A DNA stretch of 64,000 bases. Origin: Paenibacillus sp. DCT19. Its GTDB lineage: Bacteria > Bacillota > Bacilli > Paenibacillales > Paenibacillaceae. The notes below the pieces were generated by a model. The model did not search any database. It was not told the origin of the DNA and saw nothing but the letters and a program-made list of their open reading frames with translations. The DNA is taken from contig NZ_CP029639.1 in the NCBI RefSeq assembly GCF_003268635.1, positions 3,235,501-3,299,500 of the forward strand, written 5' to 3'. Shown piece by piece: positions 18,328 through 63,179 of the stretch. A program made the translations under genes and the position numbers. The first letter of the stretch is position 1. Each line of letters begins with the position of its first letter.

Positions 18328-18414
18328 TACGAAAGGATGGTGACTGTAATTTAGTGTTCGTTTGACAACAAGTAAGGCAGATTTTAATTTTTGGATAAAG
18401 GAGGAGCTAATCCG

Positions 18415-30454: not shown

Positions 30455-30717
30455 ATTCTATATACGATGATGTAATCATATAAAATAGACAGCTTATCCC
30501 CCTCTGCACATACGTTTAGAGGAGAGCTGCGGCTTATATTTATTGTGATTTATGCCCTATTCGCAAAAAATGTTTATGTATCACGCAGACTAGACTCTAC
30601 AAGCATCATAGATTAAAATTTATTTAAGATAAATCTATCTAATCAAAACGAAATTTTATTATTAAATTCTGATATAAATCCTGTTCCCGAAACGAAATAT
30701 AACTTAGATAGGTGTGC

Positions 30718-44285: not shown

Positions 44286-44325
44286 AAAAACGATCAAGGT
44301 ACTTTCGGTACCTTGATCGTTTTTT
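44286..44325. terminator. Bidirectional terminator (end of the sensor kinase gene)
   Basis: Perfect stem AAAAACGATCAAGGTAC/GTACCTTGATCGTTTTT reading through TTTCG; ends eight bases before the minus-strand kinase stop at 44334. Confidence 0.9.
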
Positions 44326-44333
44326 GCCATTCA

Positions 44334-45661
44334 TTATCTAGGGAAATAGATATGAAGATAAAAAATATCTTCGTCTGTGTGAAACGTTAGAGTTCCATTG
44401 TATTGTTCTGTAATATGCCGCATGCTCTTAATGCCAAAGCCATGACGATCTTTGTTTTTCTTATTTGTTTGTATCACATCATCTTTGATGATCAGGTCAC
44501 TATTAAAATAGTTTGTGATGTGAATAGAAATGATACCGCTTTCATTGCCTGTTGTAATCGAAATCGTTCGCTTCTTATCATTGGTTACGGATTGTACAGC
44601 CTCCAGAGCATTTTCTATTCCGTTGCTTAATAGAGAGTATAGATGAGTGGGTGAAATAAAAGACAAACATCGACCATCAGCCATGCAACTCATTCGAATC
44701 TGATTTTTCTCACAGTAAAGCTGCTTTTTATAGAGAATTACGTCCAGGATATCACTACCGGTTTTCACGGAGGTGTCATACACTTCAATAGCAGCATTCA
44801 ATGACTCGAGTTCTTGATTAGTCAGTTTGTAACTCACATTTGACAATTGTTGCCGAAGATCGTGACATTTCATATTAATCAGTTCTATTTCACTTCGCAT
44901 ACTTTCAAACTGTTTTTTCTCCGCATGCAGTAGTTCATCCATAATTAATAAATCCTGTTTTAGTTTACTCGTTTCCAATATTCTTGTACGTAATAACAAT
45001 GTAAGTAGAGCATACAGAATTGCAAAAATCCGAATGATGAAATCCAAGATACTGTTATCGCCCTCGAAGGAACGACTTAACGAGTTAATGATTACGGTGA
45101 CAAAAATAAAAATCAATGAAAAAATAACAATTAAGACCTTGTTACTTTTGTCGTGTTCATAGACTTTGTTACGACGAAAGAGTAGAGCGAGTGAAATACT
45201 AAAAATGCAATGTATCAAGGAATACACTAACCAATCCCGTAACGGAACCATTTCCTTAAAAGGGAGAGTGTTTCATACGGATTTTGTTTGAATACAACAA
45301 TAAATATTTCATACAACCGGCCTACAATCATCTGGATCGCAATACCGCCACATAGACAAAACAATAGTTCTGAAAAATTTTCCTTGTACAGCAAACATAG
45401 AGCACTCAAAACGAAAATATAGACAACAGTACTTACCACTCCGGGAAATAGATAAGGATAATGAAAATTCATATAAGATACTAACAATAGTAGTGGAATC
45501 GCCAAGTTAGCCATGATACATAGCTTTAACCAAAACCCTTTTGATTTTTGATAAGGCAGTGTCAGAATGAAAATGCAAAACACAAATTCAATTAAACTAG
45601 CCGATCGAATGATAATCTGTTTGGAGTAGACATCCAAAAAATCAGAAATCATACTATTCAT
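44334..45661 (-). CDS. AgrC-type sensor histidine kinase, GHKL domain (frameshifted as read)
   Basis: Two frames joined by one missing base at the AAAA run 45258-45261 (minus strand TTTT for TTTTT). Restoring it reads 'NPYETLSLFKEMVPLRDWLVYSL' and gives about 442 residues. The N-terminal half has about six membrane helices as in AgrC-like peptide sensors. A coiled linker leads to the H-box 'MKCHDLRQQL' (His near 267), then the N-box 'NGIENALEA' and the G-box 'HGFGIKSM' of a GHKL ATPase. The start overlaps the response-regulator stop by eight bases. No AgrB/AgrD-like peptide genes are nearby, so the signal is unknown. The target is probably the divergent glycan operon from 46615. Confidence 0.85.
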
Positions 45662-46370
45662 CTTTTTCTCTCACATACTCCATTAGTTTATTAACAAAGG
45701 CTTTCTTTCTGGGCTGACTGATCCGTAGCTCAATGCCTCCATCTAATGTAACAGTGTATCCCTGTACGCTTTGAACATACGCCAGATTGACCAAGTAACA
45801 ATTATTGCATCTGAAGAAATCGTATCCGTGCATTTTTTTTTCGATAGATGAAATAGTGGCATACTGCCGGAAGCTATTTTCTACCGAATGATAAATGACA
45901 TGATGCCCTTCTGTTTCAACATAGCGGATGCTTTTGGGAGAAACTTTGAGGATTCCTTTGTCCGAAGGGATAAGTATTTCATCTTTGGGATTCTCGTTAA
46001 GTCTTTGCATGGCACGTGACATTTTCAAGGCAAAATCATAGTACTCCACCGGCTTTAACATATAATCAAGCGCTTCCACTTCATATCCTTGAATAGCGTA
46101 CTGAGTAAGATTGGTAATGAAGATTAGGATCACTGTTTTATCGAGTGCTCTGATACTACGCGCAGCGTCCATTCCATTCATATACGGTAATTGAATATCC
46201 ATGAATATGATATCAAAATTGGAGTCGTAATTCTCCAACAGTGCAACAGCTTGTGAGAAATGCACGATATTGAAGGAAAGTCCTTTTTCGGCACTATAGT
46301 TCGTCAGATGACTTTCTAACAAACGCGCCTGGTTGATATCATCCTCTACAATAGCGATTTTGATAATCAT
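45654..46370 (-). CDS. LytTR family response regulator
   Basis: 238 residues. Receiver domain: acidic pocket 'IVEDD', phospho-acceptor Asp near 58 in 'IIFMDIQLPYMNG', and Thr and Lys in 'IFITN' and 'YMLKPV'. C-terminal LytTR DNA-binding domain from about 140 ('ILKVSPKSIRYVETEGHHVIYH', 'FFRCNNCYLVNLAYVQSVQG', 'LRISQPRKKAF'). AGGGGTG lies before ATG 46370. Co-transcribed with the AgrC-type kinase. Direct repeats at 46457 and 46477 in the divergent spacer have the helical spacing expected for LytTR binding. Confidence 0.93.
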   Translation of the reverse strand: MIIKIAIVEDDINQARLLESHLTNYSAEKGLSFNIVHFSQAVALLENYDSNFDIIFMDIQLPYMNGMDAARSIRALDKTVILIFITNLTQYAIQGYEVEALDYMLKPVEYYDFALKMSRAMQRLNENPKDEILIPSDKGILKVSPKSIRYVETEGHHVIYHSVENSFRQYATISSIEKKMHGYDFFRCNNCYLVNLAYVQSVQGYTVTLDGGIELRISQPRKKAFVNKLMEYVREKDE

Positions 46371-46456
46371 CTTTCACCCCTTAGTTTTATCTCTAATTTA
46401 TGTTCACTATAGAAAGTGAGCCTCTCTTTGTCAATAATACAACCTAAACCTCAGCG

Positions 46457-46486
46457 TAAACTAAAAAAAAACCTCATAAACTAAAA
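46457..46486. promoter_or_regulatory. Putative LytTR direct-repeat binding site
   Basis: TAAACTAAAA at 46457-46466 and again at 46477-46486, a 20-base period (about two helical turns). On the minus strand each reads TTAGTTTA, close to the LytTR core with GTT at its centre. Located between the response-regulator gene and the operon it probably controls. Confidence 0.5.
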
Positions 46487-46542
46487 ACCCGGTCGTGAAT
46501 TTTCTTTAATTCTTTGAGTTTATGCCAAATGCCACAAACAAC

Positions 46543-46561
46543 TGGCGTTACGCCATACAAT
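46543..46561 (+). promoter_or_regulatory. Probable promoter of the glycan operon with a palindrome
   Basis: Perfect dyad TGGCGT-T-ACGCCA (46543-46555) directly abuts a -10-like TACAAT (46556-46561). There is no recognisable -35 17 bases upstream, which fits a promoter that needs an activator. Confidence 0.5.
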
Positions 46562-46614
46562 AGAGGTGCGCTAAGGAAAGCGTATACAATAATTGATTAA
46601 AAGGGGATAGCAAC

Positions 46615-47244
46615 ATGGGAAAAAGAACAGCGAAAACAGCCTTCACGGCAATTTGTATGGTCATGATGTTGGTTGCTTTAACAGCATGTGGAAGTGGTAC
46701 AGACGGAGAGAAGTCAGGTGCATCTAATAACCCTACAGGGTATTATGCGTCTACAACTAATGTGGCATTCACAAGTGCTTACCCGGAACATACCTTTAAA
46801 AGGGCCACTTTTGGCGTCCAATCCATTGAGACATTTGCAGATAATACGTATATCTTAACATCCACAGGTACTTCTTTTTCGGGAGCATTGTTATTTGAAG
46901 ATAGCGGTAAATACGATGTTGTACCTAGAGGAGCAGACATTACTAAATATTATGGGACAGTAACTGTAAAAGACGAAGATGGGCTACGTACACTTGAATT
47001 ATCCCAACCTACATCAGTGATGGTGAATAGTTCATATTCGGCAGGTGCAAATCCTATTGGTTATTTGAATACGCTTGCATGGACTGATGAAATGGGGCAA
47101 GCAGCTGGTGGAGAAGGTGCAGCCTTAACTGCAGAGCAATACCTTGAATCCGTATCATTCCCGGCAACTTCCATTATTGTTGACCCTGCAAGAGCAAGCT
47201 TCGATTACACAGTGCTAAAAGAAAGCGAAGAAGCAACACATTAA
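46615..47244 (+). CDS. Lipoprotein of unknown function
   Basis: 209 residues with a lipoprotein signal (basic start, hydrophobic core, lipobox LTAC with Cys 25) and a Gly/Ser/Asn linker. The mature part is beta-rich ('SIETFADNTYILTSTGTSFSGALLFEDSGKYDVVPRG', 'YYGTVTVKDEDGLRTLELSQPTSVM') with no motif I recognise. GGGGA precedes ATG 46615. It is the first gene of the operon opposite the AgrC/LytTR pair and ends 34 bases before the GH3 gene. It may be a substrate-binding or accessory partner for the membrane-anchored GH3. Confidence 0.75.
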   Translation: MGKRTAKTAFTAICMVMMLVALTACGSGTDGEKSGASNNPTGYYASTTNVAFTSAYPEHTFKRATFGVQSIETFADNTYILTSTGTSFSGALLFEDSGKYDVVPRGADITKYYGTVTVKDEDGLRTLELSQPTSVMVNSSYSAGANPIGYLNTLAWTDEMGQAAGGEGAALTAEQYLESVSFPATSIIVDPARASFDYTVLKESEEATH

Positions 47245-47278
47245 GTTAAATAAATGGACTCTGTAGGAGGTAGCTGCA

Positions 47279-50218
47279 TTGAAAAGCAAAAAAAAATTAT
47301 GGCGCGGATTGACGGCGCTTTCAGCATTTCTCTTAGCCTTTAGTTTATTTATGACTGAACTGCTAATGAGTTGGAGTGGTCAAGTGAATGTTTTTCTTAA
47401 AATCACTCCACCTGTAATCCAAGCTGATGAGAGCTCGACGTATTATCCAAGCAACTATGAGTTATCTGATCAGGGTTTAGCAGAGATGTTAGTCGATTCG
47501 GATAAACACGATGTGCAGACGATGGAAGAAGGAACGGTTCTCTTAAAAAATAACCAATCCGCACTGCCATTACGTGCTGAAGAACGTAGTGTTACCTTGT
47601 TTGGTCGGGCGACGGCAGATCCTGTATATAGCGGGAATTCTGGTGGGCCTGGTATGGATGAGAAACGTCAGGTTAATTTGTACAATGCTTTAAAGGAAGC
47701 TGGATTCACCATTAATGACAGGTTGTTCGACGCTTACAAGAATAGTGATGTGGCTAGGGCAAAAGCGTCTCCCGATTGGTTCATTGGAGAAGTTGATAAA
47801 AATTTCTATACCAATGACCTACAAGCAACATACCAAGATAATTTCAATGATGTGGCTATTGTCATGTTGTCTCGTGATGGTGGGGAAGGTAAAGACTTAG
47901 CGACAACCGACAGAGACGGCATTTCTTACTTGGCACTTCATAACACAGAAAAAGATCTATTAAAAATGATCAAGGATAGCGGGAAATTTTCGAAGATTGT
48001 TGTTCTGATTAATAGTGCATATGCGATGGAACTAGGTTGGCTTGAAGAACAGGAATACGGGGTTGATGCTGCCCTGTGGATCGGAAATCCGGGTCTTAAA
48101 GGCTTTACAGGCGTGGCAAATGTACTAGTAGGTGCGGCCGATCCTTCAGGTAGACTCGTGGATACCTTTGCAGCAGACTCCTTATCTGCACCAGCGGTTA
48201 GAAACGCAGGCGATTTTCAATACTCGAATGATAATGGTCATTATATCATCCAAGCAGAGGGTATCTATCAAGGCTATAAGTACTACGAAACAAGATATCA
48301 CGATGCTGTCCTGGGTTTAAATAATGCGGATAGCAGCGCAGGTGCTTTTGTTAATCAAGAACGTTGGAGCTACGCTGACGAAATGGTATATCCATTTGGC
48401 TATGGTAATAGCTATGCTAATTTCACTCAGCAGTTAACTTCGGTGGAATGGGACAGAAATGCCAAAACAGTAACGGCTCAGGTTAAGGTGACGAATGAGG
48501 GCTATCCTCAGGAATCAGCTTATACAGGAAAGTCTAAATCAGTTGTACAGGTCTATGCTCAACTTCCATATGAAGAAGGGCAAGCAGAAAAATCTGCAAT
48601 ACAGTTAGTTGGATTCGGAAAAACGAGTGAACTGGGTGCAGGTGAATCTGAAGATGTCACGGTTACAATTGATGACTATTTATTTGCAACCTATGATGAG
48701 AATGCTGAAAATGGGGCTGATCCAAGCAAGAAGGGTAGTTATGTCTTTGATCCAGGCGACTACTATTTTGCAATAGGTAATGATAGTCATGACGCTCTCA
48801 ATAATGTGATGGCAAATAAGCAAGGTGCAGCCGTAGCAGGCAAGCTATTGCTGGCTAATGGTTCAGTGGTAGATGGAGATGCCAATAAAGCAGTCTCTGT
48901 ACCGCTAGAAACGTTAGATAATGTAACCTATGCCAAATCTCAATATACAGATGAAGTGGTTTCCAATCAATATGATGATATTGATTATAATTACTTCGCT
49001 GAAAATGCGGTTACGTATTTAACACGTAATGACTGGAATACGTATCCTAAAGCATACACCGCTGTTGAGGCCACTGATAAATTAAAAGAAGTATTGTATA
49101 ACGAAAAATATCAAAAGCCTAGTGATGCGCCAGCGTATGATAGCTTTGCTCAAGGTGTAGATGCAGGGCTGAAACTGGTTGATATGAAGGATGTTCCGTT
49201 TGATGACGATGAGAAATGGAATACGTTCTTGAGTCAATTAACGATTGCTGAGTTGAGTGCGACGATCGGGGAGAATTTTGGACAACCAGCTGTGAAGTCC
49301 ATTAATAAACCTGCCAACAAAAATACAGACGGACCTTCAGGCGCTCAATCCAATTATTTGTTTAATAATGGTCAACCGTCTACGGCACATGTTAGTCAAA
49401 TTGTAGCAGCATCAACGTGGAACCAACAGTTAATCGCAGAACGTGGTGATTTTATCGCAGAGGATGCTCTGTTCACTGGAACGACACAGCTCTGGTCACC
49501 AGGAGCCAATCTACATCGGACTCCATTTAGTGGACGTAACTTTGAGTATTACTCTGAAGATAGCATTCTGAGTTATATCATGGGTGCAGTTCAGACAGAA
49601 GCAATGCAAGCGAAGGGATTAACCGCTTCCATTAAACACTTTGTTGCCAATGACCAAGAGACAAATAGAAGCGAGTTAGCTACATTTGCGACTGAACAAT
49701 CCTATCGTCAAGGTCCTTTGAAAGCATTTGAGGGTGCCTTCACCAAAGGAGAAGCGCTTGGTACGATGATGTCATTCTCTCGAATTGGTGCTCGTTTGGC
49801 CTATGCAGATCATGCAACGCTGACACAAGTGCTTCGAAATGAATGGGGCTTCAAAGGGGTTACGATTACAGATTCAGTTAAAGGTAATCCGAATATCCCA
49901 ACGGTGGAATCACTTGTTGCTGGAACAGATACCTTTAACGCGGATACTGCCCGTGCGAGTGAGATTCACAAATATCTTGCAAGTAACAAGGATGGTTACG
50001 TATTGCAAGAGTTAAGAAGAGCCAATAAAGGCTTCTATTATTCCTTAGCTAATTCTACTTTGATTAATGGTCTATCGGCTGAAACTGAAGTAGAAGATTT
50101 TGTACCATGGTGGCAAACATTTTTGAAGGTTACGAATTATACCCTTGGTGCATTAACGCTGTTGAGTTTATTCCTGTTCATTAGAACTGGCTATGCAAGA
50201 AGGATAAGGGAGGTTTAA
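47279..50218 (+). CDS. Membrane-anchored, circularly permuted glycoside hydrolase family 3
   Basis: 979 residues from TTG 47279 (TAGGAGG eight bases upstream). Domain order is reversed relative to most GH3 enzymes: the alpha/beta sandwich ('EEGTVLLKNNQSALPLR', 'VVLINSAYAMELGWLE') and the fibronectin-III-like part come first (about 80-520). The TIM-barrel comes last (about 640-900), with 'TASIKHFVANDQETNR' (KHF-type motif) and nucleophile Asp in 'GFKGVTITDSVKG'. Membrane helices lie at both ends (about 12-34 and 945-968), each with a basic cytosolic side, so the catalytic part is held outside the membrane. GH3 enzymes release terminal beta-linked sugars. The permuted order is known from a few rumen beta-glucosidases; the double anchor is unusual. 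Confidence 0.88.
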   Translation: MKSKKKLWRGLTALSAFLLAFSLFMTELLMSWSGQVNVFLKITPPVIQADESSTYYPSNYELSDQGLAEMLVDSDKHDVQTMEEGTVLLKNNQSALPLRAEERSVTLFGRATADPVYSGNSGGPGMDEKRQVNLYNALKEAGFTINDRLFDAYKNSDVARAKASPDWFIGEVDKNFYTNDLQATYQDNFNDVAIVMLSRDGGEGKDLATTDRDGISYLALHNTEKDLLKMIKDSGKFSKIVVLINSAYAMELGWLEEQEYGVDAALWIGNPGLKGFTGVANVLVGAADPSGRLVDTFAADSLSAPAVRNAGDFQYSNDNGHYIIQAEGIYQGYKYYETRYHDAVLGLNNADSSAGAFVNQERWSYADEMVYPFGYGNSYANFTQQLTSVEWDRNAKTVTAQVKVTNEGYPQESAYTGKSKSVVQVYAQLPYEEGQAEKSAIQLVGFGKTSELGAGESEDVTVTIDDYLFATYDENAENGADPSKKGSYVFDPGDYYFAIGNDSHDALNNVMANKQGAAVAGKLLLANGSVVDGDANKAVSVPLETLDNVTYAKSQYTDEVVSNQYDDIDYNYFAENAVTYLTRNDWNTYPKAYTAVEATDKLKEVLYNEKYQKPSDAPAYDSFAQGVDAGLKLVDMKDVPFDDDEKWNTFLSQLTIAELSATIGENFGQPAVKSINKPANKNTDGPSGAQSNYLFNNGQPSTAHVSQIVAASTWNQQLIAERGDFIAEDALFTGTTQLWSPGANLHRTPFSGRNFEYYSEDSILSYIMGAVQTEAMQAKGLTASIKHFVANDQETNRSELATFATEQSYRQGPLKAFEGAFTKGEALGTMMSFSRIGARLAYADHATLTQVLRNEWGFKGVTITDSVKGNPNIPTVESLVAGTDTFNADTARASEIHKYLASNKDGYVLQELRRANKGFYYSLANSTLINGLSAETEVEDFVPWWQTFLKVTNYTLGALTLLSLFLFIRTGYARRIREV

Positions 50219-50223
50219 CCTAA

Positions 50224-50661
50224 ATGGTCTTATTTAAAGACAGAACACTAGGCTTTTGGATCGGATTTATGGCTGCGAGTTTAATGCTGGTAGCTAACAT
50301 TGTGTTTCTCATTGTTAATCATGGTGATCGCACCTTTTCCTTCATCACCTTTGGTTTAATTATTGCTGGCGTATTAGGAGAATTGCTGGTTTTGCTTAAA
50401 AACTATTTCTTTGCCCCTATTCTACCAGCCATTGCCTTTGGGGTCGCATTATCTATGCATTTCTATCTAGGGTTCCCGACATTATCAGATGTTGTAAACG
50501 GAGTCAACTTTATTGGAGGAAATCCTCAAGCTGTGCTGGTCTTTGGTATTACCTTTACTATTGGAACTATTGCAGCATTGATCTCTTGTTTTATGAAACA
50601 ATCCAAGTCCGAAGGGTTAAACCATACTGTTCATACTTCAAATGAAAGCGGAGAAACATAA
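50224..50661 (+). CDS. Small integral membrane protein, four helices
   Basis: 145 residues with four predicted membrane segments ('LGFWIGFMAASLMLVANIVF', 'FITFGLIIAGVLGELLVLL', 'FFAPILPAIAFGVALSMHFY', 'AVLVFGITFTIGTIAALISCF') and a charged cytosolic tail. No family recognised. It starts five bases after the GH3 stop and its stop is followed immediately by the GH2 start (TAAATG), so translation is tightly coupled. It may assist the membrane-bound GH3 or form part of an export complex; this is inference from context. Confidence 0.75.
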   Translation: MVLFKDRTLGFWIGFMAASLMLVANIVFLIVNHGDRTFSFITFGLIIAGVLGELLVLLKNYFFAPILPAIAFGVALSMHFYLGFPTLSDVVNGVNFIGGNPQAVLVFGITFTIGTIAALISCFMKQSKSEGLNHTVHTSNESGET

Positions 50662-53082
50662 ATGAGAAAAATTAGTATCTGTGATGGATGGAGTTTTATA
50701 GAGAATATTACTGATGAATTTTTCAACTTTACAGGTGAGGGGACAGCCGTAAGGCTGCCCCATACTTGTAAAGAAGTCCCTGTACACTACATGGAAGAGA
50801 GTGCTTGTCAGATGATCTGTGGTTATAGACGTCATCTGATGGTTCCGGATACACTGAAAGGTCAGCGTTTGTTTCTTCAGTTTGATGGTGCCGCTCACGT
50901 AGCAGAAGTATTTGTCAATGGCGAGCAGCTAACGACTCACAATGGCGGATACACTGCTTTTCGAGTAGAAGTAACGGATAAACTGGTGTACGGAGCCGAG
51001 AACAGAATTGTCGTTCGTCTGAATACACGAGAAGACGCAAATGTACCGCCATTTGGTCATGTTATTGATTACATGACTTACGGTGGACTCTATCGTGAAG
51101 CGTGGTTGTTAGTAGCTAATGAAAGCTATGTAGAAGATGTTTTTGTCCGAACACCGGAGAAAGACCAAGCACTGATTGACGTTACAATTAGTCAACCTGA
51201 TTCAACACACATTGTGGAATTAAGTTTGTTAGATCAACAGCAAACGATAGTTGCCCATACCACCCTGAATGTAATAGGGGCAGAACTCAAAGAATGCAAG
51301 ATTAATGTTCCTAATAGCAACGCGTGGAGCCCGGAGACTCCTTATCTTTACTCGTTAGTAGCAACGCTTAAAAAGCATAATGGAGAAATAATAGACGAGT
51401 ATAATGTATTTTTCGGATTCCGCCAAATTGATTTTCGCTATGATGGATTTTATTTGAATGGTGAAAAATATAAGATTCGTGGGCTGAATCGCCACCAGAG
51501 TTATCCGTATGTAGGCTATGCTATGCCTGCTTCAATGCAGGTGGAGGATGCACGAATATTAAAGGAAGAACTACATGTTAACGCAGTTCGTACCTCGCAC
51601 TACCCTCAGTCTAAGCATTTCCTGGATGCATGTGATCGTTTAGGATTGCTCGTGTTTACCGAAACACCAGGTTGGCAACATATCAAAGACGATGAAGAGT
51701 GGAAACAGATTGTTTGTGAAAACGTGGAAGAAATGATTCTGCAGTATCGTAATCACCCTTCCATTATTCTGTGGGGGGTTCGATTGAATGAGTCGCAAGA
51801 TGATGACGTTCTATATACAAAGACGAATGAAATCGCTCGCCGTTTGGATCACAGCAGACAGACCAGTGGAGTTCGCTTTCTGTGGAGAAGTAATCTATTA
51901 GAAGATGTCTATGGGTTTAATGATTTTTCTCATACTGGAAAGAACGCTGCGCTACTACCAAGGTGGTTGATTTCACCGAGTAAAAGCAAAGCGTATTTGA
52001 TCTCCGAATTTAATGGTCATATGTTTCCAACAAAAGCAACAGATGAGCCTTCTCGCCGGCTTTCTCACGCTATGCGTTACGCCAATGTCTTGAATGAAGT
52101 GTATAAAAGAGAAGACATTGCAGGCTCTTTTGGCTGGTGTATGTTTGATTATCAAACCCATGGTGATTTTGGATCTGGTGATCGTATTTGCTACCACGGT
52201 GTGATGGACATGTTTCGTAATCCGAAGCTTGCTGCCAGAGTCTACGCTAGTTTCTCAGAAGATGCTCCCGTTCTGGAAGTGGGTTCAGATATGCATATCG
52301 GAGATTACCCTGGTGGTGCTGTTGGTGAAAACTACATCTTCACTAATGCGGATCAAGTCCGGCTGTATAAGAATGACATCATGATTCGGGAGTTTGAACC
52401 GGTTAACCAAAAGTATCGTTATTTACCACATCCACCGATCGAATTCTATGACACCGTAGGGAACGTAATAGAAGAAGGAGAGAAGTATTCCCGTAAGAAA
52501 GCAGATGCCATCAAAGAGAGCCTATTAGCTATCCAGCGCTTTGGAACTGCATTACCTGTAAAGTATATTTTTAAAGCAGTATGGGTCATGTGTCGTCACC
52601 TTGTATCGCCGATCACCTTCTATCGTTTGTTTTTCAAGTACATTGAGAATTGGGGAGCTTCAGCACCCGTCTATCGTTTTGAAGCTGTGAAAAAAGGAAA
52701 GGTTGTCGCAGAGGTTGTGAAATCATCTAACGCGAGTATTCATGTGGAAACCACCGTTAGTGCTGCGGAATTAGTCGAAGCTGACACATATGATATGGCG
52801 TCAGTTCGTATTCGAGTAGCAGATGCCAATAACAATAATGCAACCTACTCTCATTTACCTTTATTTCTAAAAGCAGAAGGTGCGATAGAAATCGTAGGAC
52901 CAGACTGTGTCGTCGCAGAGGGCGGTATGTGTGGTACGTATATCAAGACACACGGGACAGCTGGCGAGGGAACATTGACAATCACCTCCAACCAGACTGA
53001 ACCTGTCCAGTTAAGCTTTAACGTGATATTAGAAGGAAGTGATCGGTATGCAAGCAATCAGATTGTACTGGAACAATTATAG
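50662..53082 (+). CDS. Glycoside hydrolase family 2 protein (beta-galactosidase/glucuronidase-like)
   Basis: 806 residues, no signal peptide, so cytosolic. Sugar-binding jelly roll ('QFDGAAHVAEVFVNGEQLTTHNGGYTAFRVEVT'), Ig-like domain, then the TIM barrel from about 270: 'FYLNGEKYKIRGLNRHQSYP', acid/base Glu in 'ILWGVRLNESQDD' and nucleophile Glu in 'YLISEFNGHMFP', followed by C-terminal beta domains. In the N-E pair the residue pattern is kept, so activity is likely. The linkage could be beta-galactoside, beta-glucuronide or a galactofuranoside; sequence alone does not decide. It starts directly at the previous stop. The next gene begins inside its 3' end. Confidence 0.88.
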   Translation: MRKISICDGWSFIENITDEFFNFTGEGTAVRLPHTCKEVPVHYMEESACQMICGYRRHLMVPDTLKGQRLFLQFDGAAHVAEVFVNGEQLTTHNGGYTAFRVEVTDKLVYGAENRIVVRLNTREDANVPPFGHVIDYMTYGGLYREAWLLVANESYVEDVFVRTPEKDQALIDVTISQPDSTHIVELSLLDQQQTIVAHTTLNVIGAELKECKINVPNSNAWSPETPYLYSLVATLKKHNGEIIDEYNVFFGFRQIDFRYDGFYLNGEKYKIRGLNRHQSYPYVGYAMPASMQVEDARILKEELHVNAVRTSHYPQSKHFLDACDRLGLLVFTETPGWQHIKDDEEWKQIVCENVEEMILQYRNHPSIILWGVRLNESQDDDVLYTKTNEIARRLDHSRQTSGVRFLWRSNLLEDVYGFNDFSHTGKNAALLPRWLISPSKSKAYLISEFNGHMFPTKATDEPSRRLSHAMRYANVLNEVYKREDIAGSFGWCMFDYQTHGDFGSGDRICYHGVMDMFRNPKLAARVYASFSEDAPVLEVGSDMHIGDYPGGAVGENYIFTNADQVRLYKNDIMIREFEPVNQKYRYLPHPPIEFYDTVGNVIEEGEKYSRKKADAIKESLLAIQRFGTALPVKYIFKAVWVMCRHLVSPITFYRLFFKYIENWGASAPVYRFEAVKKGKVVAEVVKSSNASIHVETTVSAAELVEADTYDMASVRIRVADANNNNATYSHLPLFLKAEGAIEIVGPDCVVAEGGMCGTYIKTHGTAGEGTLTITSNQTEPVQLSFNVILEGSDRYASNQIVLEQL

Positions 53083-53647
53083 AGATAAGCATCCCAAGTT
53101 GGCAGAATTTTTAATGTTTCTGATCCTGAGTAATGGCATCACCGTTTTTCAAATGGTTCTTATGCCTGTCTTAAAAGCCATGTTTAGCGGAAGCCGTATG
53201 GAAGCCTATACTTTTCAACTTTTTCCGCTAGGTCATAATTTTGACGGATCAGTTTATTATATTTTCAATTATCCGGCTGGTTCAATTGCATCAGGTGGAG
53301 GTGGAGGTCTTGCTTACTTCATTGCTGTCCAATTAACCTTGGGTATTGCTCAGGTCATTAATTTCTTTGCGCAACGAAATATCACGTTCAGATCCAAAGG
53401 GAACATTTATAAAGCCGCTTTTTGGTATGTTGTAGCTTATATCTTGATTACCATTTGTGCAGGAGCACTTCAGGGTTGGTATAAGGAACCGATCTACAGC
53501 TTCTTTATCGATCGATTTGGAAGATCTGGTGAGACAACGGCTGATCTGATCACCATGATTATTAATGCCGCCATTTCATTCTGGGTATACTTCCCGATAT
53601 TGAAAATCATCTTTAAAGAGAAGAAAAATAAGATATCAATAGGATAA
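53048..53647 (+). CDS. GtrA-like family membrane protein
   Basis: 199 residues from ATG 53048 (AAGGAAG upstream), overlapping the GH2 gene by 35 bases. Four membrane helices and the GtrA hallmark after the second-third helix: 'VINFFAQRNITFRSKG' (N-F-x-x-x-R-x-x-x-F). GtrA-type proteins are thought to move undecaprenyl-phosphate-linked sugars across the membrane for glycan decoration. Members usually have about 120-150 residues; this one carries a longer loop with a Gly run ('IASGGGGGLAYF'). It lies directly before a GT2 glycosyltransferase gene. Confidence 0.82.
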   Translation: MQAIRLYWNNYRDKHPKLAEFLMFLILSNGITVFQMVLMPVLKAMFSGSRMEAYTFQLFPLGHNFDGSVYYIFNYPAGSIASGGGGGLAYFIAVQLTLGIAQVINFFAQRNITFRSKGNIYKAAFWYVVAYILITICAGALQGWYKEPIYSFFIDRFGRSGETTADLITMIINAAISFWVYFPILKIIFKEKKNKISIG

Positions 53648-53674
53648 ATACACGACACTAAGAAGAGGTTTGTT

Positions 53675-54691
53675 ATGAAACTATTATCTTTCGTAATACC
53701 GTGTTTTAACTCGCAGGATTACATGGATCGGTGTATAAGTAGCTTGCTGATTGACGATGAAGAACTTGAGGTCATTATTGTTAACGATGGATCTAGCGAT
53801 AGTACCCAAAGGATTGCAGAGCAGTATGAGGCGAAGTATCCATCCATTGTAAGAGTCGTACACCAAGAAAATTTAGGCCACGGTGGAGCGGTCAATACAG
53901 GTATTAGTTTTGCTACTGGATTATTCTTAAAGGTTGTTGACAGTGATGATTGGATTGATCCTAGTGCCTTCAAAGAAATACTTGCAACACTAAAAACGTT
54001 GGTAGCGGAAGATAAGACAGTCGACATGGTTGTAAGTAATTTTGTCTATGAGAAAACAGGGAAAAAGTACAAAAAAGTGATGGAGTACGGAAAAAACTTT
54101 CCTGAAGGATGCATTTTCTCATGGGACGATATTAAACCCTTTCGCAAAGGTCAGTATATCTTGATGCATTCGATTATTTATCGCACGAGTCTATTAAAAG
54201 AATGCAAATTGAAACTTCCAGAGCATACGTTTTATGTGGATAATCTGTTTGTGTTTAAACCGCTGGAAAAAGTGGAGCGAATTTATTATGTGAATGTTGA
54301 TTTTTATCGCTATTTTATTGGGCGAGAGGATCAATCCGTCAACGAGAAAGTGATGATTGAGCGAATTGACCAACAGCTGAAAGTTAATAAACTCATGATT
54401 GACCAGATCAATATGGAAGAGATTAAAAGCCTGAAACTTCGTCAATATATGCTGAACCATCTCGAAATAATAACCGTGATCTCTACCATATTATTGATTC
54501 GTTCAGGGAAGAAGGAAAATCTAAAAGCGAAAAAAGAACTGTGGAAGTACATTAAGGATAAAGATATTGAATTATACAATAGTATCCGATATGGAGCCAT
54601 GGGAAGATTGATGAATATGCCGGGTCATTTGGGTCGCACAATGTCAGTAGCTGCCTATAAATTATCACAGAAGATTGTGGGATTTAATTGA
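53675..54691 (+). CDS. Glycosyltransferase family 2
   Basis: 338 residues, GT-A fold. 'MKLLSFVIPCFNSQDYMDRCISSLL', 'EVIIVNDGSSDSTQRIAEQY', 'NLGHGGAVNTGISFATGLFLKVVDSDDWID' (with the metal-binding DxD as DSDD). The C-terminal part is helical and lacks membrane segments, so the enzyme is probably cytosolic or peripheral. It transfers a sugar from a nucleotide donor to a lipid or glycan acceptor. Placed between GtrA-like and UDP-galactopyranose mutase genes, its donor could be UDP-galactofuranose, though this is an inference. AGAAGAGG precedes ATG 53675, and a hairpin follows the stop. Confidence 0.9.
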   Translation: MKLLSFVIPCFNSQDYMDRCISSLLIDDEELEVIIVNDGSSDSTQRIAEQYEAKYPSIVRVVHQENLGHGGAVNTGISFATGLFLKVVDSDDWIDPSAFKEILATLKTLVAEDKTVDMVVSNFVYEKTGKKYKKVMEYGKNFPEGCIFSWDDIKPFRKGQYILMHSIIYRTSLLKECKLKLPEHTFYVDNLFVFKPLEKVERIYYVNVDFYRYFIGREDQSVNEKVMIERIDQQLKVNKLMIDQINMEEIKSLKLRQYMLNHLEIITVISTILLIRSGKKENLKAKKELWKYIKDKDIELYNSIRYGAMGRLMNMPGHLGRTMSVAAYKLSQKIVGFN

Positions 54692-54719
54692 AAGCATAAA
54701 ACAACGTTTATCATCTTTA

Positions 54720-54752
54720 AACCTGTGGATCCGTTTAGAATCCACAGGTTAT
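54720..54752 (+). terminator. Hairpin between GT2 and glf
   Basis: Perfect 11-bp stem AACCTGTGGAT/ATCCACAGGTT with a poor T-tail (ATTTC). Probably a weak or leaky terminator. Confidence 0.6.
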
Positions 54753-54802
54753 TTCATATCAATTGCTTTCTTATGAACGAATGAAAGGTCAGGTGAGTGT
54801 AC

Positions 54803-55918
54803 ATGCAACACGATTATTTAGTCATAGGTTCCGGATTATTCGGTAGTACATTTGCTTATGAAGCAGCCAAACGGGGGAAGCGAGTAAAGGTTATCGAAAA
54901 ACGAGACCACGTTGGCGGTAATATCTATACGGAACCGATCGAGGACATACATGTTCATAAATATGGGGCGCATATTTTTCACACCAATAATAAGGAAATC
55001 TGGGACTACATCAATCAATTTGCGGAGTTCAATCGATATACGAACAGCCCCGTAGCCAATTATAAAGGTGAAATATACAATTTACCCTTTAATATGAATA
55101 CATTTAATCAGCTATGGGGCACGATTACCCCTGATGAAGCTAAGTTGAAGATTGCAGAACAGATCCAGGCAACACAGATTAAAGACCCCAAAAACCTGGA
55201 AGAACAAGCGATTTCATTAATCGGAACGGATATTTATTACAAATTGGTGAAGGGTTATACAGAAAAACAATGGGGGCGCAAAGCAACCGAGTTACCTCCG
55301 TTTATCATTAAACGTGTCCCTGTCCGCTTCACGTATGATAATAATTATTTTAATGACCGTTATCAGGGGATTCCTGTTGGTGGCTATACACAAATCATCG
55401 AAAAAATGCTATCGAGTGAATTGATCGAGGTAGAGATAAATCAGGATTTTTTTTCAAACAAAGAATCCTACTTAAAAAGCTTCCCCAAAATTGTGTATAC
55501 AGGAATGATTGATCAATTGTTTGATTACACATTTGGTGAGTTAGAATATCGAAGTTTACGATTCGAATCCTCGACTATAGATCAGCAAAACTATCAAGGC
55601 AATGCAGTTGTAAATTATACTGATTCCGAAACACCATACACTCGAATTATTGAGCATAAACACTTTGAATTCGGCAAGCAGTCCAAAACAATCATAACAA
55701 AAGAATATCCCCAAGCTTGGAGCAAAGGCGACGAACCCTACTACCCTCTAAATGACGAAAGTAATACTGAAAAATATAGAAAATATCACAAACTTGCAGA
55801 GCAATCACCACATATTATATTGGGTGGACGTCTAGGAATGTATCAATATTATGATATGCACCAAGTTATTGCAGCTGCCTTGAACACAGTTAGCATAGAA
55901 TTCGGGCAGTCCCATTGA
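54803..55918 (+). CDS. glf: UDP-galactopyranose mutase
   Basis: 371 residues from ATG 54803 (GTG 54797 is closer to the AGG site and less likely). Flavoenzyme that interconverts UDP-galactopyranose and UDP-galactofuranose. FAD-binding 'DYLVIGSGLFGSTFAYEAAKRGKRVKVIEKRDHVGGNIY', the family motif 'HKYGAHIFHTNNKEIWDYI', 'YNLPFNMNTF', the substrate Tyr/Trp region 'GYTEKQWGRKATELP', and the C-terminal 'GGRLGMYQYYDMHQVIAAA'. Length matches the family (about 370-390). It supplies galactofuranose for surface glycans and is the key clue to the sugar used by the preceding GH3/GH2/GtrA/GT2 genes. Confidence 0.97.
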   Translation: MQHDYLVIGSGLFGSTFAYEAAKRGKRVKVIEKRDHVGGNIYTEPIEDIHVHKYGAHIFHTNNKEIWDYINQFAEFNRYTNSPVANYKGEIYNLPFNMNTFNQLWGTITPDEAKLKIAEQIQATQIKDPKNLEEQAISLIGTDIYYKLVKGYTEKQWGRKATELPPFIIKRVPVRFTYDNNYFNDRYQGIPVGGYTQIIEKMLSSELIEVEINQDFFSNKESYLKSFPKIVYTGMIDQLFDYTFGELEYRSLRFESSTIDQQNYQGNAVVNYTDSETPYTRIIEHKHFEFGKQSKTIITKEYPQAWSKGDEPYYPLNDESNTEKYRKYHKLAEQSPHIILGGRLGMYQYYDMHQVIAAALNTVSIEFGQSH

Positions 55919-55943
55919 AAGTCGCTATTGAGCGACTTTTTTT
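55919..55943 (+). terminator. Terminator after glf
   Basis: AAGTCGCT/AGCGACTT stem, ATTG loop, T-run, starting at the base after the stop. Confidence 0.85.
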
Positions 55944-56010
55944 ATTTATAGATCAATATAACAATAGTCTTCCTAATACAACTTTATGCTATATTATGTC
56001 TACATAATAA

Positions 56011-56024
56011 TGAAATCGTTTTCT
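56011..56024 (+). promoter_or_regulatory. Probable CcpA cre site upstream of the YesM-like kinase
   Basis: TGAAATCGTTTTCT matches TGWAANCGNTNWCA except for the last base and fits the looser WTGNAANCGNWNNCW form completely (preceded by A). It lies 47 bases before the GTG start. Nearly the same sequence recurs at 59486. Confidence 0.65.
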
Positions 56025-56070
56025 TTCGTTGGGGAAAAGTAATGATTAGCTAGAAATCGGAGGAGTTGAC

Positions 56071-57831
56071 GTGTTGAGAAATACAAATACGAAATGGCGG
56101 CTATCCATTAATAAACGTCTGATCATAGCGTTTATTGTTGCGACATTTCCAATATATTTACTTGCAGGCATATTGTACAACTGGACTTCGGATTTACTAC
56201 GGAAAGATATTATGACCTCGACTGAAACGCAGTCTCAAAAGTATTTAAGTGAGCTTAATAGTACCCTTAGCCGCTTTAATTCACTTCAGTACGATATGCT
56301 TAACGATGAATATGTAATCCAGTTTGCGAATGCATATGACACGCTTGAGTCCTATCACAAAATTCAGCTTATTCATTTTTTGAGATCCAAACTAGTATCC
56401 ATTCGAAACAGCAGCGACTTCATCGTGGATGTACGTCTTTATTTAACAAATCTTGATATTGAAATATCCGCAAACGACGGTTACGGTCAGTTGAAGGTTA
56501 CAGATATCCCTCCTGAAAAGCTGAAAGATCCTTATCATCTTATTACTTATGATGACAGATTGCTTAGCGTCGCATACCCTCTTGAGAGCGAATATAGAAC
56601 CACCCCTGAAATAATCGTTGAGATCGAAATGAGAACGAGTGAACTTCATCGCAGCTTCGAAGCTGCGTTAGAAAAAGATTATTCTGGCGCGATTGTACTC
56701 GGACTAGGTCGAAACGCCAAAAATATGATTGTTGTGAATGATGACAAATTAGAACAGTCAATCACACGGCAGTATGGGGAAATGAAACAATCAACTCAAG
56801 AAGCTTCACCAATTCAAACGAATAAAGATTATATTTTTGTAAGATCTTCTCTGGCGGAAAATGACTTGTATATCGATCATTATTTGTATACACCAACGAT
56901 GTTTGAACCAATCTCGAAATCTATTATCTGGTTCTGGCTATTCTTCGGACTGACCATTCTAATGGTTGCCCTGTATCTGTACTACATCAACAGAATCATT
57001 AATAAGCCTATGGTGAAGCTTGTTCGCGCGTTCAAGCGAATTGAAGAGGGAAATTTGGAACTCAATATTCATCATAATAAGGAAGACGAATTCGGTTATT
57101 TATACAAACGTTTCAATGATATGGTAATCAATTTGAATATTTCAATAGATGAGATCTATAATCAGCGGATTCATCGACAAAATGCGGAGCTGAAACAGCT
57201 TCAATCACAGATTAATCCTCATTTCCTATATAATTGCCTGTTCAGTATCATTCGTCTTATTAAAATGGAAAAAGACAAAGAAGCCGTGCATTTCACGGAT
57301 CAGCTTGCCAAGTATTTTCAATTCATAACGCGCAACTCTAGAGATACAGTCACCCTTGAGAATGAAGTGGCACATGCTCGTAATTATGCCATGCTACAAT
57401 TAGCTAGATTTTCAGATCGGGTGACCGTGAATTTTGGCGAATTACCGAACAGTATCAAAGCTCTTTCGGTTCCACGCCTAATTATTCAGCCTATAGTTGA
57501 AAACGCATTCGTGCACGGCTTGGAAAATGTGATAGAAGGAGGTATTCTTAGCGTTTCGTTCCTGGATAAACCTGAACAGATCGTGGTTCTTGTCGAAGAT
57601 AACGGTGAGGACAGTGAGGATGCTATAAAAAAACTGTCTGCGCTTCTATCGGATACGCAAGATGAACAAGAGATCTCGGGGATTTTGAATGTGCATAGAA
57701 GGCTTCAGTACAAATACGGACCAGAGAGTGGGATAAAGGTCAGTCCTAGTGAGCTAGGTGGAGTAAAGATTGAACTAACGATTTCACGGAAAGAGGCGAG
57801 TGACGATGTACCGGATGTTAATTGTGGATGA
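56071..57831 (+). CDS. YesM-like sensor histidine kinase
   Basis: 586 residues from GTG 56071 (GGAGGAG upstream). Two membrane helices (about 18-38 and 287-308) enclose a large extracellular sensor domain. A HAMP segment follows ('INKPMVKLVRAFKRIEEGNLEL'), then the His_kinase domain with phospho-His in 'QINPHFLYN' and the ATPase with 'QPIVENAFVHGLE' and 'VEDNGE'. The final part overlaps the response-regulator gene. These kinases, with AraC-type regulators, sense extracellular oligosaccharides or the loaded binding protein and induce pectin and xylan uptake genes. Confidence 0.93.
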   Translation: MLRNTNTKWRLSINKRLIIAFIVATFPIYLLAGILYNWTSDLLRKDIMTSTETQSQKYLSELNSTLSRFNSLQYDMLNDEYVIQFANAYDTLESYHKIQLIHFLRSKLVSIRNSSDFIVDVRLYLTNLDIEISANDGYGQLKVTDIPPEKLKDPYHLITYDDRLLSVAYPLESEYRTTPEIIVEIEMRTSELHRSFEAALEKDYSGAIVLGLGRNAKNMIVVNDDKLEQSITRQYGEMKQSTQEASPIQTNKDYIFVRSSLAENDLYIDHYLYTPTMFEPISKSIIWFWLFFGLTILMVALYLYYINRIINKPMVKLVRAFKRIEEGNLELNIHHNKEDEFGYLYKRFNDMVINLNISIDEIYNQRIHRQNAELKQLQSQINPHFLYNCLFSIIRLIKMEKDKEAVHFTDQLAKYFQFITRNSRDTVTLENEVAHARNYAMLQLARFSDRVTVNFGELPNSIKALSVPRLIIQPIVENAFVHGLENVIEGGILSVSFLDKPEQIVVLVEDNGEDSEDAIKKLSALLSDTQDEQEISGILNVHRRLQYKYGPESGIKVSPSELGGVKIELTISRKEASDDVPDVNCG

Positions 57832-59437
57832 CGAGAAACTGCTGTTGAATGGATTATACGAATTGTTCCTGGAAGCCGAAGGACATCGACTTGAAGTTTA
57901 CAAAGCATCTACTGCATTGGAGGCTTTGAGAGTCATGTCTGAAAAGCGGGTTGATATTCTGTTGTCCGATATTAAAATGCCTAAGATGTCGGGATTAGAA
58001 CTTGGTGATCAGGTAAAACGGCAATGGCCGGAATGCAAACTCATATTCCTTACAGGCTTCGATCAATTTGATTATGTTCATCATGCCATTAAGCAAGGTG
58101 CACAGAACTATATATTGAAAGCAGAGGGAGACGATGCGATCGTAGAGGCAGTTCGTAAAACCATTCGTGATTTGGATGAAGAACAGAAGATGGACACTTT
58201 AATCAAACAAGCACGTGACATACAGAAAAAACATGCGGAGCATCACCGCCTTATCTACCTATCTGACTTACTGGAGGGCTTACAATCGCAGGAGGATCTA
58301 ACACCACAACATTTGGAGGCAATGGGGATCAAACTTGCAATAGACCGCCCCTTTATTATGTGTGTGGCAAGATTAGATTTGGTGAATTCTTCATTACGAG
58401 CTAGAGAGAGACAGTTACTTTTCACGGCACTGCATACCGTTTGTGTACGATTTCTGTCAGCCTATTCCGAATTCACAGACGTTGTATATAACCGGGAGTA
58501 TTATGTTTTCTTCATTCAATCTCGTGATCACTCCTCAAAAGCTGATGAGCAGTTAATAACTTTTATTAACGGGTCTATTGAATTGATTCAGCAAACATTA
58601 GAAAAATCGACAGGATATACATTTTCATTTGCACTTACAGAACGATCTATTGTTTGGAGCGATGTAGTCAAGCAGTTTACAGTTCTCAAAGCCTTCTTAT
58701 CTCGATACTATGATGCTCAAAAAATCATCGTGAGGAATAACAACTTTACAGGTTCGGAGAATCAAGATGAAGAAGAGGTACGTGGGTTCATTGAGGTTTT
58801 CCATAAGAAGGCAAATGCACTAGAGACGTACATTGAATCTGGACGAAGAGATGAAGTTCAATTTATATTGTCAGAACTGGCGTCTTATGCTGAGTGGGAG
58901 GCCATTGATGATATGCGATACATGGAGATGTATTGCGCGGTAGCACTTCGTATACTGACATCTGCCAACAAATTAGGGCTGGATCGTGATACTACAGTTG
59001 CTTCCCATATGTCCAAGCTGTTACAGCCCACATCCATTCTTATACGAAAAGAAGGGATCAAGACATTACAGCACATCTTAAACCAATTTGAACATTACCA
59101 CTCCTCTCAGTCTTCTAGCATGCGGATAGACATACTCTGGAAAATTAATCAGTACATTGAAACACATTTAGGTGGTGACCTTTCTGTATCCAATCTTGCG
59201 GAGCAAGTGTACTTGAATCCGGATTATCTATCCAGAATGTTTAAACAATCAAAAGGCATAACCCTTACGGAGTATATCGCAGCTCTGAGAATTCAAAGAG
59301 CCAAAGAACTACTAACGGACCCAAGAAATCTCGTGCAGGATATCGCCAAAGCCCTTGGCTTCACTTCGGCTGGTTATTTCAGTCGATTCTTTAAAAAAGA
59401 AACGGGACAAACCCCGCAGGAGTTTCGGACATCTTAA
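57806..59437 (+). CDS. YesN-like response regulator with AraC-type output domain
   Basis: 543 residues from ATG 57806 (AGAGG nine bases upstream; GTG 57800 possible), overlapping the kinase gene by 26 bases. Receiver: 'MLIVDDEKLL', phospho-Asp near 55 in 'VDILLSDIKMPKMSG', and Lys in 'YILKAEGD'. The middle region is of the YesN linker type. C-terminal double HTH from about 445 ('LSVSNLAEQVYLNPDYLSRMFKQSKGITLTEYI', 'LVQDIAKALGFTSAGYFSRFFKKETGQTPQEFR'). It probably activates the binding protein and permease genes that follow. Confidence 0.93.
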   Translation: MYRMLIVDDEKLLLNGLYELFLEAEGHRLEVYKASTALEALRVMSEKRVDILLSDIKMPKMSGLELGDQVKRQWPECKLIFLTGFDQFDYVHHAIKQGAQNYILKAEGDDAIVEAVRKTIRDLDEEQKMDTLIKQARDIQKKHAEHHRLIYLSDLLEGLQSQEDLTPQHLEAMGIKLAIDRPFIMCVARLDLVNSSLRARERQLLFTALHTVCVRFLSAYSEFTDVVYNREYYVFFIQSRDHSSKADEQLITFINGSIELIQQTLEKSTGYTFSFALTERSIVWSDVVKQFTVLKAFLSRYYDAQKIIVRNNNFTGSENQDEEEVRGFIEVFHKKANALETYIESGRRDEVQFILSELASYAEWEAIDDMRYMEMYCAVALRILTSANKLGLDRDTTVASHMSKLLQPTSILIRKEGIKTLQHILNQFEHYHSSQSSSMRIDILWKINQYIETHLGGDLSVSNLAEQVYLNPDYLSRMFKQSKGITLTEYIAALRIQRAKELLTDPRNLVQDIAKALGFTSAGYFSRFFKKETGQTPQEFRTS

Positions 59438-59485
59438 AGACGCAAGGTACACGTTGTCGGCAGAATACAAGGAATATCGGAATTT

Positions 59486-59499
59486 TGAAATCGCTTTCT
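59486..59499 (+). promoter_or_regulatory. Probable CcpA cre site upstream of the binding-protein gene
   Basis: TGAAATCGCTTTCT, one mismatch to the strict cre consensus and a full match to WTGNAANCGNWNNCW (preceded by T). It differs from the site at 56011 at a single base over 14. It lies 58 bases before the start codon. Confidence 0.65.
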
Positions 59500-59557
59500 T
59501 TCCCTCTGGACTGTAAGCTTATCTTGTACTTAATATTGAATGACTGGAGGGGTATAC

Positions 59558-61234: not shown

Positions 61235-61240
61235 TGATGA

Positions 61241-61271
61241 ATAGGGGAACTTCGCAGTTCCTCTATTTTTA
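61241..61271 (+). terminator. Intra-operon terminator between binding protein and permease
   Basis: ATAGGGGAACT/AGTTCCTCTAT stem (one G-T pair) with TCGC loop and TTTTTAT tail, between co-directional transporter genes. Probably partial, giving more binding-protein than permease mRNA. Confidence 0.8.
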
Positions 61272-61295
61272 TAAAAACGGATGGAGTGTGCACAC

Positions 61296-62207: not shown

Positions 62208-62263
62208 TTGGAATTTACGAGCGATAAGCCCCATTTCTCTCAATAAATAAGGAGGCTGTATAC

Positions 62264-63148: not shown

Positions 63149-63179
63149 TTTAATCAAACTATACATTATGAGGTGACAC

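Follow-up and report, generated by a model that had tools for sequence, protein, structure and literature searches.

What kind of glycan processing could be carried out by a locus in which two regulatory genes adjoin glycosidases as well as genes for the synthesis and transfer of galactofuranose (Galf)? The question is raised by a locus in Paenibacillus sp. DCT19, whose genome is a single contig of 6.67 Mb (NZ_CP029639.1); the stretch of DNA analysed (the window) is 64 kb long, and the locus occupies window positions 44288–56089. Minus-strand genes for a LytTR regulator and a GHKL kinase diverge there from a plus-strand row encoding a lipoprotein, a permuted membrane-anchored glycoside hydrolase (GH) of family 3 (GH3p), a 145-residue membrane protein (MP145), a GH2 enzyme, a GtrA-like protein, a family 2 glycosyltransferase (GT2) and a UDP-galactopyranose mutase (UGM). 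The locus is real and conserved, and the co-occurrence of its parts places their grouping beyond chance. It is tentatively read as a module under switch control that processes a membrane-linked glycan by trimming, moving and re-glycosylating it, with the window carrying its GtrA version; this reading is plausible, at somewhat less than an even chance.

Co-occurrence and replacement of the parts

Loci related to that of the window were assembled as 93 GH3p loci, namely 13 places from a family search and the best 80 of 590 matching stretches, all of which contain GH3p by selection. The LytTR and kinase genes are present together in 55 of them, GtrA in 36, a transporter of the MFS_2 family in 12, GT2 in 29, UGM in 21, a soluble GH3 in 33, GH2 in 17, MP145 in 17 and the lipoprotein in 7. 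These relatives span Bacillota and Actinomycetota records, many of them from gut and rumen, such that the co-occurrence across Bacillota proposed as a check with an earlier, sequence-only reading of the locus is found and extends to a second phylum.

How the parts replace one another is seen in the 50 loci where GH3p has 5 kb or more of flanking sequence on each side. LytTR and kinase are present in 33, a LysR-type regulator in 10 (counted by cluster, with one member scanned), neither in 7 and both in none. A cytosolic GH and a transporter occur together in 36 loci, a GH alone in one (L043) and a transporter alone in none; 13 have neither of these among the profiled families, and unprofiled transporters or hydrolases are possible there. 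GtrA (27 loci) and MFS (9 loci) are never found together (Fisher p 0.0003), nor are GH2 (12 loci) and soluble GH3 (25 loci). All 24 GT2 genes are in loci with GtrA and all 19 UGM genes in loci with GT2; relatives in which GH3 and GH2 are never linked to GT2 and the mutase are thus not the pattern that emerged. The GtrA version has an inner GH in 27/27 loci and GT2 in 24/27, and GH43 genes are present in five of the 50. Two MFS representatives (L068 and L075) match the sugar-transport family MFS_2. The one-for-one replacement of parts by unrelated families is a strong sign of a common plan.

There are few exceptions. One GT2 gene among the 93 loci lacks a GtrA neighbour (L087, at a contig end), and L098 is the sole locus with both GtrA and MFS, where two GH3p genes lie on one contig, one beside MFS_2 and the other beside GtrA and a soluble GH3. 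Outside the 93, a locus found through its GT2 (L183) has GH3p, LytTR, kinase, GH2, MFS, GT2 and UGM in one row; it is the only locus seen with GT2 and UGM in the MFS version and an exception to the rule that GT2 accompanies GtrA, and it favours the equivalence of GtrA and MFS.

Twenty ordinary GH3 loci from genomes of the same family served as controls, and none has LytTR, kinase, GtrA, MFS, GT2, UGM, GH2, MP145 or lipoprotein matches over the thresholds used for the module loci. Below threshold they contain LytTR-profile matches of 52–72 bits and, in L143, an MFS_2-like match of 98 bits (threshold 300); one control, L129, is a 2325-residue protein scoring best with the GH3p profile.

Organization and boundaries of the locus

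The locus is a discrete block that aligns to two genomes of the same genus as one 11.8-kb piece with 93.7% identity. In both relatives, sequence homologous to window positions 63150–64000 begins 6 bases after the block, so ~7 kb separate the block from that flank in the window; the surroundings of the block at its opposite end are not alike in the window and the two relatives. GH3p is present at 97% identity in two other genomes among 23 listed for the genus (with up to four candidates scored per genome). All genes named by the sequence-only reading are found at the positions and in the order it gave, with three corrections, and its tight spacing holds: 5 bases separate GH3p from MP145, 0 bases MP145 from GH2, and GH2 and GtrA overlap by 44 bases (Table 1).

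Table 1. Predicted features of the block in window coordinates
Feature	Position	Strand	Evidence and remarks
GHKL kinase, C-terminal part, 3 hydrophobic segments	44334..45251	-	HATPase_c_5, 78.8 bits; out of frame with N-terminal part
Kinase, N-terminal membrane part, 4 hydrophobic segments, premature end	45227..45661	-	Hydropathy, relatives
LytTR response regulator	45654..46370	-	LytTR 61.3 bits, Response_reg 56.7 bits
Sigma-70-like promoter toward regulator and kinase	46406..46434	-	11/12 positions, consensus match only
Perfect 11-bp direct repeat, 20-bp period, candidate LytTR site	46457..46487	+	Pattern scan
Lipoprotein, predicted beta-rich, without Pfam family	46615..47244	+	
GH3p, permuted membrane-anchored GH3	47279..50218	+	Pfam order, conserved catalytic residues
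MP145, four-helix membrane protein, 145 aa	50224..50661	+	Relatives directly downstream of GH3p
GH2, no hydrophobic segment found, both catalytic Glu motifs	50662..53082	+	Pfam, motifs
GtrA-like membrane protein, 4 segments	53039..53647	+	20.5 bits, below Pfam cut-off 26.1
GT2 glycosyltransferase, 338 aa, no hydrophobic segment found	53675..54691	+	
UDP-galactopyranose mutase (UGM)	54797..55918	+	TIGR00031 447.8 bits, cut-off 303.75
Terminator-like hairpin and T tail, directly after UGM	55917..55940	+	

The ~7 kb that follow the block (56090–63149) contain genes for a YesM-type kinase, an AraC-type response regulator, a solute-binding-like protein and a permease-like open reading frame (ORF); among 29 other genomes of the genus, none yields a match to the YesM-type kinase at E <= 1e-150. 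Elsewhere in the window (30712–35100) is a gene for a 1462-residue protein whose protein-kinase match is partial and, at 26.8 bits, under the cut-off; the protein also has an AAA_16 match and a LuxR-type helix-turn-helix.

The outer enzyme and its companions

GH3p has its Pfam domains in permuted order (C-domain 86–379, Fn3 422–503, N-domain 706–895) and aligns to beta-glucosidase 2x40 in that permuted order. It resembles the permuted GH3 beta-glucosidases of known structure 5wug and 5k6l, whose chains of 955 and 921 residues likewise have the N-domain in the second half. The GH3 acid/base Glu and nucleophile Asp are both present, with E203 kept in 92/92 alignment rows, D865 in 91/92, and adjacent active-site residues in 78–92; by sequence GH3p looks active, as do the GH2 and UGM of the block. 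The sequence-only reading of a double-anchored permuted GH3 stands as to the permutation and, for most of the family, as to anchors at both ends (at a hydropathy cut-off of 1.5, an N-terminal segment in 86/92 members and a C-terminal one in 84/92), but at a cut-off of 1.6 only the N-terminal anchor is marked in the window protein.

All 18 MP145 relatives scoring above 35 bits are directly downstream of GH3p. The predicted MP145 structure (mean pLDDT 84.9) has four helices and finds no match in the PDB at E <= 0.001; the closest PDB entries, among them Fc-epsilon-RI beta and TARP subunits, are four-helix membrane proteins of a generic kind. MP145 and its relatives share a conserved motif around LSDxxNGVNFxGGN, located between helices 3 and 4. 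For the lipoprotein, the predicted structure is beta-rich and of moderate quality (pLDDT 71.1); its best match, to a ToxS sensory domain, was weak (E 0.044, TM 0.30) and was not used.

Cytosolic glycosidases and their putative membrane-binding helices

Both catalytic glutamate motifs of the window GH2 were taken from direct reading of its sequence, the acid/base columns being misaligned in the family alignment. It also has a basic hydrophobic helix at residues 634–651, within a stretch missing from all compared GH2s other than those of the window's two near-copies. Its best identities to the GH2s of sister loci are 25–31%. The proposal that these are the same GH2 was rejected on this low identity and on the helix stretch peculiar to the near-copies, and for both reasons the window GH2 looks separately recruited. 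By a score that is a rule of thumb, a lipid-binding-like helix falls within the final 100 residues in 41/42 soluble GH3s of module loci, compared with 0/19 control GH3s.

GtrA, GT2 and UGM

The sequence-only assignment of a GtrA-like gene is tentative: the window protein scores under the Pfam cut-off, although it has four membrane segments and the module GtrA family shows many conserved positions. UGM scores above the cut-off of its equivalog model (Table 1) and is the sole copy found in the genome; only five of 60 genomes of the genus have UGM, including the window's own and G147. Since the gene is single here and uncommon in the genus, the genome's capacity for UDP-Galf seems to hang on this one operon.

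The GT2 belongs to a subfamily (E <= 1e-70) present in 5/299 genomes of the window's class and in 26/291 genomes of Anaerobium's class. In the latter it occurs at 29 places, 11 of them with UGM and two with GH3p nearby (L183 and L207); L207 is on the same contig as L095, so only L183 is new among the GH3p-bearing ones. The 27 clostridial places without GH3p nearby, together with L150 and L151 from small genomes of the window's class, make up a second set of 29 loci; UGM is present in 10 of these, and in 12 a member of one particular neighbour family lies within three genes (L182, L184, L185, L187–L190, L192, L194, L199, L202 and L205). One scanned member of this neighbour family is PAP2-like (24.4 bits; Pfam cut-off 27.2), and GT2 and this small protein are possibly an independent lipid glycosylation pair. 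A basic hydrophobic tail is present in the last 90 residues of 52/57 GT2 relatives. There is modest evidence that the GT2 acceptor is a lipid and the donor UDP-Galf; it is the UGM neighbours, and these only, that link GT2 to Galf.

Regulatory genes and candidate control sites

The kinase is split over two frames in the window, whereas both closest relatives carry one gene for a 443-residue protein, the two versions differing by a single-base length difference. The sequence-only assignment to the AgrC type therefore keeps its families (GHKL domain and membrane part) and loses the intact single gene. In the window region 18391–24792, a match to a rhamnogalacturonan lyase (RGL11) ends at profile position 198/490 in the first ORF, and the following ORFs overlap in other frames (19413–21956, 21914–22942 and 22939–24792). 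These frame breaks and the split kinase suggest indel errors or decayed genes in the window; an assembly error is a possible cause of the kinase split.

As had been noted, no AgrB gene accompanies the pair, and none is found in the genome (0 matches to PF04647 at E <= 0.001); a peptide made by an AgrB of the cell itself is therefore an unlikely cue. Family membership makes the suggested response to a signal from outside the cell plausible, although the kinase is broken and the 10 LysR loci among the 50 lack LytTR and kinase. These loci (L034–L040, L080, L088 and L106; one LysR member scanned) are from the window's own family, Gracilibacillus and Cytobacillus.

Upstream of the lipoprotein gene, a direct repeat of 11 bases, perfect and with a period of 20 (Table 1), is kept in both relatives. 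The pattern has one match against none in 100 shuffles, a figure flattered by the pattern having been copied from the site itself. LytTR regulators bind two direct repeats approximately two helical turns apart. Direct repeats (9-of-10) were counted upstream of GH3p, soluble GH3, GH2, lipoprotein, UGM or GT2 genes, in 153 regions from 82 loci, with the window counted once and its two near-copies excluded: spacing 21 occurs in 24 regions and each of the other 18 spacings between 13 and 31 in 0–5. The same scan of 111 coding stretches gives one for spacing 21, with the largest counts being nine (spacing 27) and six (spacing 30).

The best plus-strand terminator-like site is immediately after UGM and the remaining plus-strand candidates are weaker, which fits a single predicted transcript ending there; overall the terminator scan is not above chance (11 sites versus 8.2 in shuffles). 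The promoter scan finds 42 sigma-70-like sites where 37 are expected in shuffles.

A mosaic origin

Judged by its nearest relatives, the block is a mosaic, with a GH3p side like that of clostridia and GT2 and UGM like those of its own family and of Bacillales. Best identities outside the near-copies are 49–54% for GH3p, 29–39% for MP145, 27–36% for the lipoprotein and 33–38% for the C-terminal part of the kinase, the nearest sequences being mainly from clostridial and other Bacillota metagenome genomes. LytTR is 46–48% identical to its top three matches, also from such genomes, and Cellulomonas is within the top five. UGM (71–73%) and GT2 (63–64%) are closest to module loci of the window's family, Gracilibacillus and Cytobacillus, and GtrA (56–65%) to module loci of several taxa.

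In a FastTree phylogeny of 103 GH3p rows, labelled by locus and with 'none' including loci cut by contig ends, one large side contains 31 GtrA, 24 'none' and no MFS rows, and the other 12 MFS, 30 'none' and six GtrA rows. These six are the window, its two near-copies, L057, L061 and, by its locus label, L098. The window GH3p is in a fully supported clade of 10, in which the seven rows besides the window and its near-copies are all 'none'. The GtrA–GT2–UGM unit thus seems to have joined the GH3p core more than once, and such repeated joining argues for a working link.

Proposed function and alternative explanations

At the core of the module there would be a regulator and a GH3 tethered to the membrane on its outer side, together with an inner glycosidase to which a transporter is coupled. 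In the GtrA version, the membrane kinase would sense an outside cue and LytTR would bind the repeat at 46457–46487, turning on a transcript from 46615 to ~55940, as family roles and the site statistics suggest. At the outer face, GH3p, beside the lipoprotein and MP145, would cut beta-linked pyranosyl residues from a membrane-linked glycan. The lipid-linked remnant would be moved across the membrane by GtrA, as by MFS_2 in the sister loci, a parallel drawn from their mutual replacement. GH2, presumably held at the inner face by its basic hydrophobic helix, would take off a further sugar. UGM would make UDP-Galf, as expected of its family, and GT2, acting as a lipid-type galactofuranosyltransferase, would add Galf to the freed lipid, for a net effect of switchable head-group exchange on a membrane glycolipid. 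A membrane-linked glycan is thought to be the substrate because the enzymes seem membrane-held and PMC13390465 describes GtrA proteins as flipping lipid-linked sugars. Saponin, plant galactolipid and arabinogalactan were considered as substrates, and none is named for lack of evidence.

In its fullest form the scheme describes a machine that strips, flips and replaces glycolipid head groups under one switch, with glycosidases on both faces, a GtrA-type flippase and Galf installation by UGM and GT2; this form is rather unlikely. Its corollary would be that GtrA and MFS_2 are interchangeable for the inward movement of partly trimmed glycosides. The account in PMC13390465 that is drawn on here does not assign an inward direction to GtrA.

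The locus could instead be a Gram-positive polysaccharide utilization locus (gpPUL), in which GH3p trims foreign glycosides, GtrA imports them, the cytosolic GH finishes their breakdown and the regulator senses substrate. GT2 and UGM would then be passengers, or renewers of a surface coat disturbed by the substrate. This close rival, its account of the Galf arm included, is doubtful but only slightly less likely than the preferred reading. The published minimum of enzyme, transporter and regulator, as given in PMC5320581, suits it, and so do the MFS_2 transporters of L068 and L075 in the place of GtrA, the use of LysR for LytTR and kinase in a fifth of the loci (10/50), which is expected for sensing of a cytosolic metabolite, the GH43 genes of five loci, and L183, where GT2 and UGM are beside an ordinary sugar-transporter version. 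With the transporter and the Galf arm set aside, the gpPUL definition would seem to fit. GtrA is described in PMC13390465 as moving lipid-linked sugars outwards rather than importing; GT2 is hardly a random passenger, since it is present in 24/27 GtrA loci and in none of the nine MFS loci; and soluble sugars do not require the basic hydrophobic tails of the cytosolic GHs.

The sequence-only reading has GtrA export a Galf lipid that is the product of GT2 and UGM, and GH3p edit, outside the cell, the surface glycan formed from this lipid. It draws on the fact that GtrA, GT2 and UGM go together and share one apparent transcript with GH3p in the window. It is nevertheless unlikely, as no GT-C or other outer-face transferase is seen among the ORFs of 44288–56089, GT2 is without a hydrophobic segment, and the cytosolic GH, present in 36/36 full-flank loci with a transporter, is given no role. 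That the locus both makes and edits a Galf glycan holds in so far as GT2 and UGM are linked to the core of GH3p and cytosolic GH in many loci, but they are optional: where they are missing the core has MFS_2 or no profiled transporter, so the building of a Galf glycan cannot be its general job. An accidental gathering of unrelated neighbours would account for the many GH3p loci without GT2 and UGM and for the 27/29 clostridial GT2 places without GH3p nearby; given the exclusive replacements, the 0/20 controls, the assembly in distant taxa and the terminator-like site at the end, it is most improbable.

Several points weigh against the preferred reading. Each profile was derived from the very loci whose genes it was then used to count; a single family supplied all the controls, whereas the loci belong to several phyla and, where related, do not count as independent. 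GT2 and UGM are absent from all nine MFS loci of the 50 and all 12 of the 93 (L183 being outside the set), which may point to a tie between GtrA and GT2 that is mostly missing from MFS; and the 13/50 loci with GH3p and no profiled cytosolic GH or transporter indicate that the outer enzyme has a job without Galf. The helix score also fires outside the tail in 21/42 module soluble GH3s versus 3/19 controls, so part of the soluble-GH3 signal may be composition, and it fires elsewhere in 36/57 GT2s, the window GT2 having its only such helix at 153–170 and not in the tail. The sole PAP2-like member scanned scores below the Pfam cut-off, and the substrates of PAP2 proteins may include polyprenyl pyrophosphate as well as phosphatidic acid; together these PAP2 and helix caveats would weaken the argument for a lipid. 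On the regulatory side, the window repeat has a spacing of 20 and not 21, some regions with 21-bp repeats are in loci without LytTR in view (e.g. L035 and L068), and the kinase is broken in the window sequence.

If the preferred reading is true, a widespread and apparently unnamed module would join regulation, outer-face hydrolysis, membrane passage and inner-face hydrolysis, with one version adding Galf. It would provide a second working context for GtrA proteins and tie LytTR signalling to membrane glycan turnover, and the natural replacements for each part would make the substrate testable.

Relation to known systems

No description of GtrA with GH3, beta-glucosidase, LytTR or UGM was found in the open-licence literature, which is weak evidence of absence. 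One paper lists two GH3 genes of B. longum that are two numbers apart.

The closest signalling system is of the agr type, which shares the GHKL kinase with a multi-segment membrane part and the LytTR regulator; matches to both families are present here. The window differs in having no AgrB in the genome, glycan enzymes as neighbours and a kinase in two frames.

In the three-component GtrA glycosylation systems (gsf cluster; PMC13390465), a GtrA-type protein is beside a GT2, as a GtrA-like one is here. The lipid-linked sugar of such systems is made by a membrane-linked GT-A glycosyltransferase, but the window GT2 has no hydrophobic segments, with a basic helix at 153–170 (at the tail in 52/57 relatives), and the pair sits with glycosidases and UGM. 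As for the GT-C glycosyltransferase of such systems, none is among the annotated ORFs of 44288–56089, the rest of the genome not having been searched. By size and layout only, the GT2 may be likened to Mycoplasma MG517, a characterised GT2 glycolipid synthase (PMC3849446), a type of enzyme that transfers a sugar to diacylglycerol: the proteins have 338 and 347 residues, respectively, and in each a C-terminal extension comes after the GT domain.

The gpPULs (PMC5320581) share glycoside hydrolases, a regulator and the sugar transporter of the sister loci, and one of them (Ros-7 in its table) has a LytTR response regulator, a kinase and a GPH transporter. The block contains GH3 and GH2 with catalytic motifs, which may act on a polysaccharide, and a LytTR regulator, though with a broken kinase; its only transporter candidate is GtrA, in the place that MFS_2 occupies in sister loci, and GT2 and UGM are added. 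In the main text of PMC5320581, 'gtra' and 'mutase' are absent as whole words. The module is apparently an unnamed variant of a regulated glycan-processing locus and not a new category.

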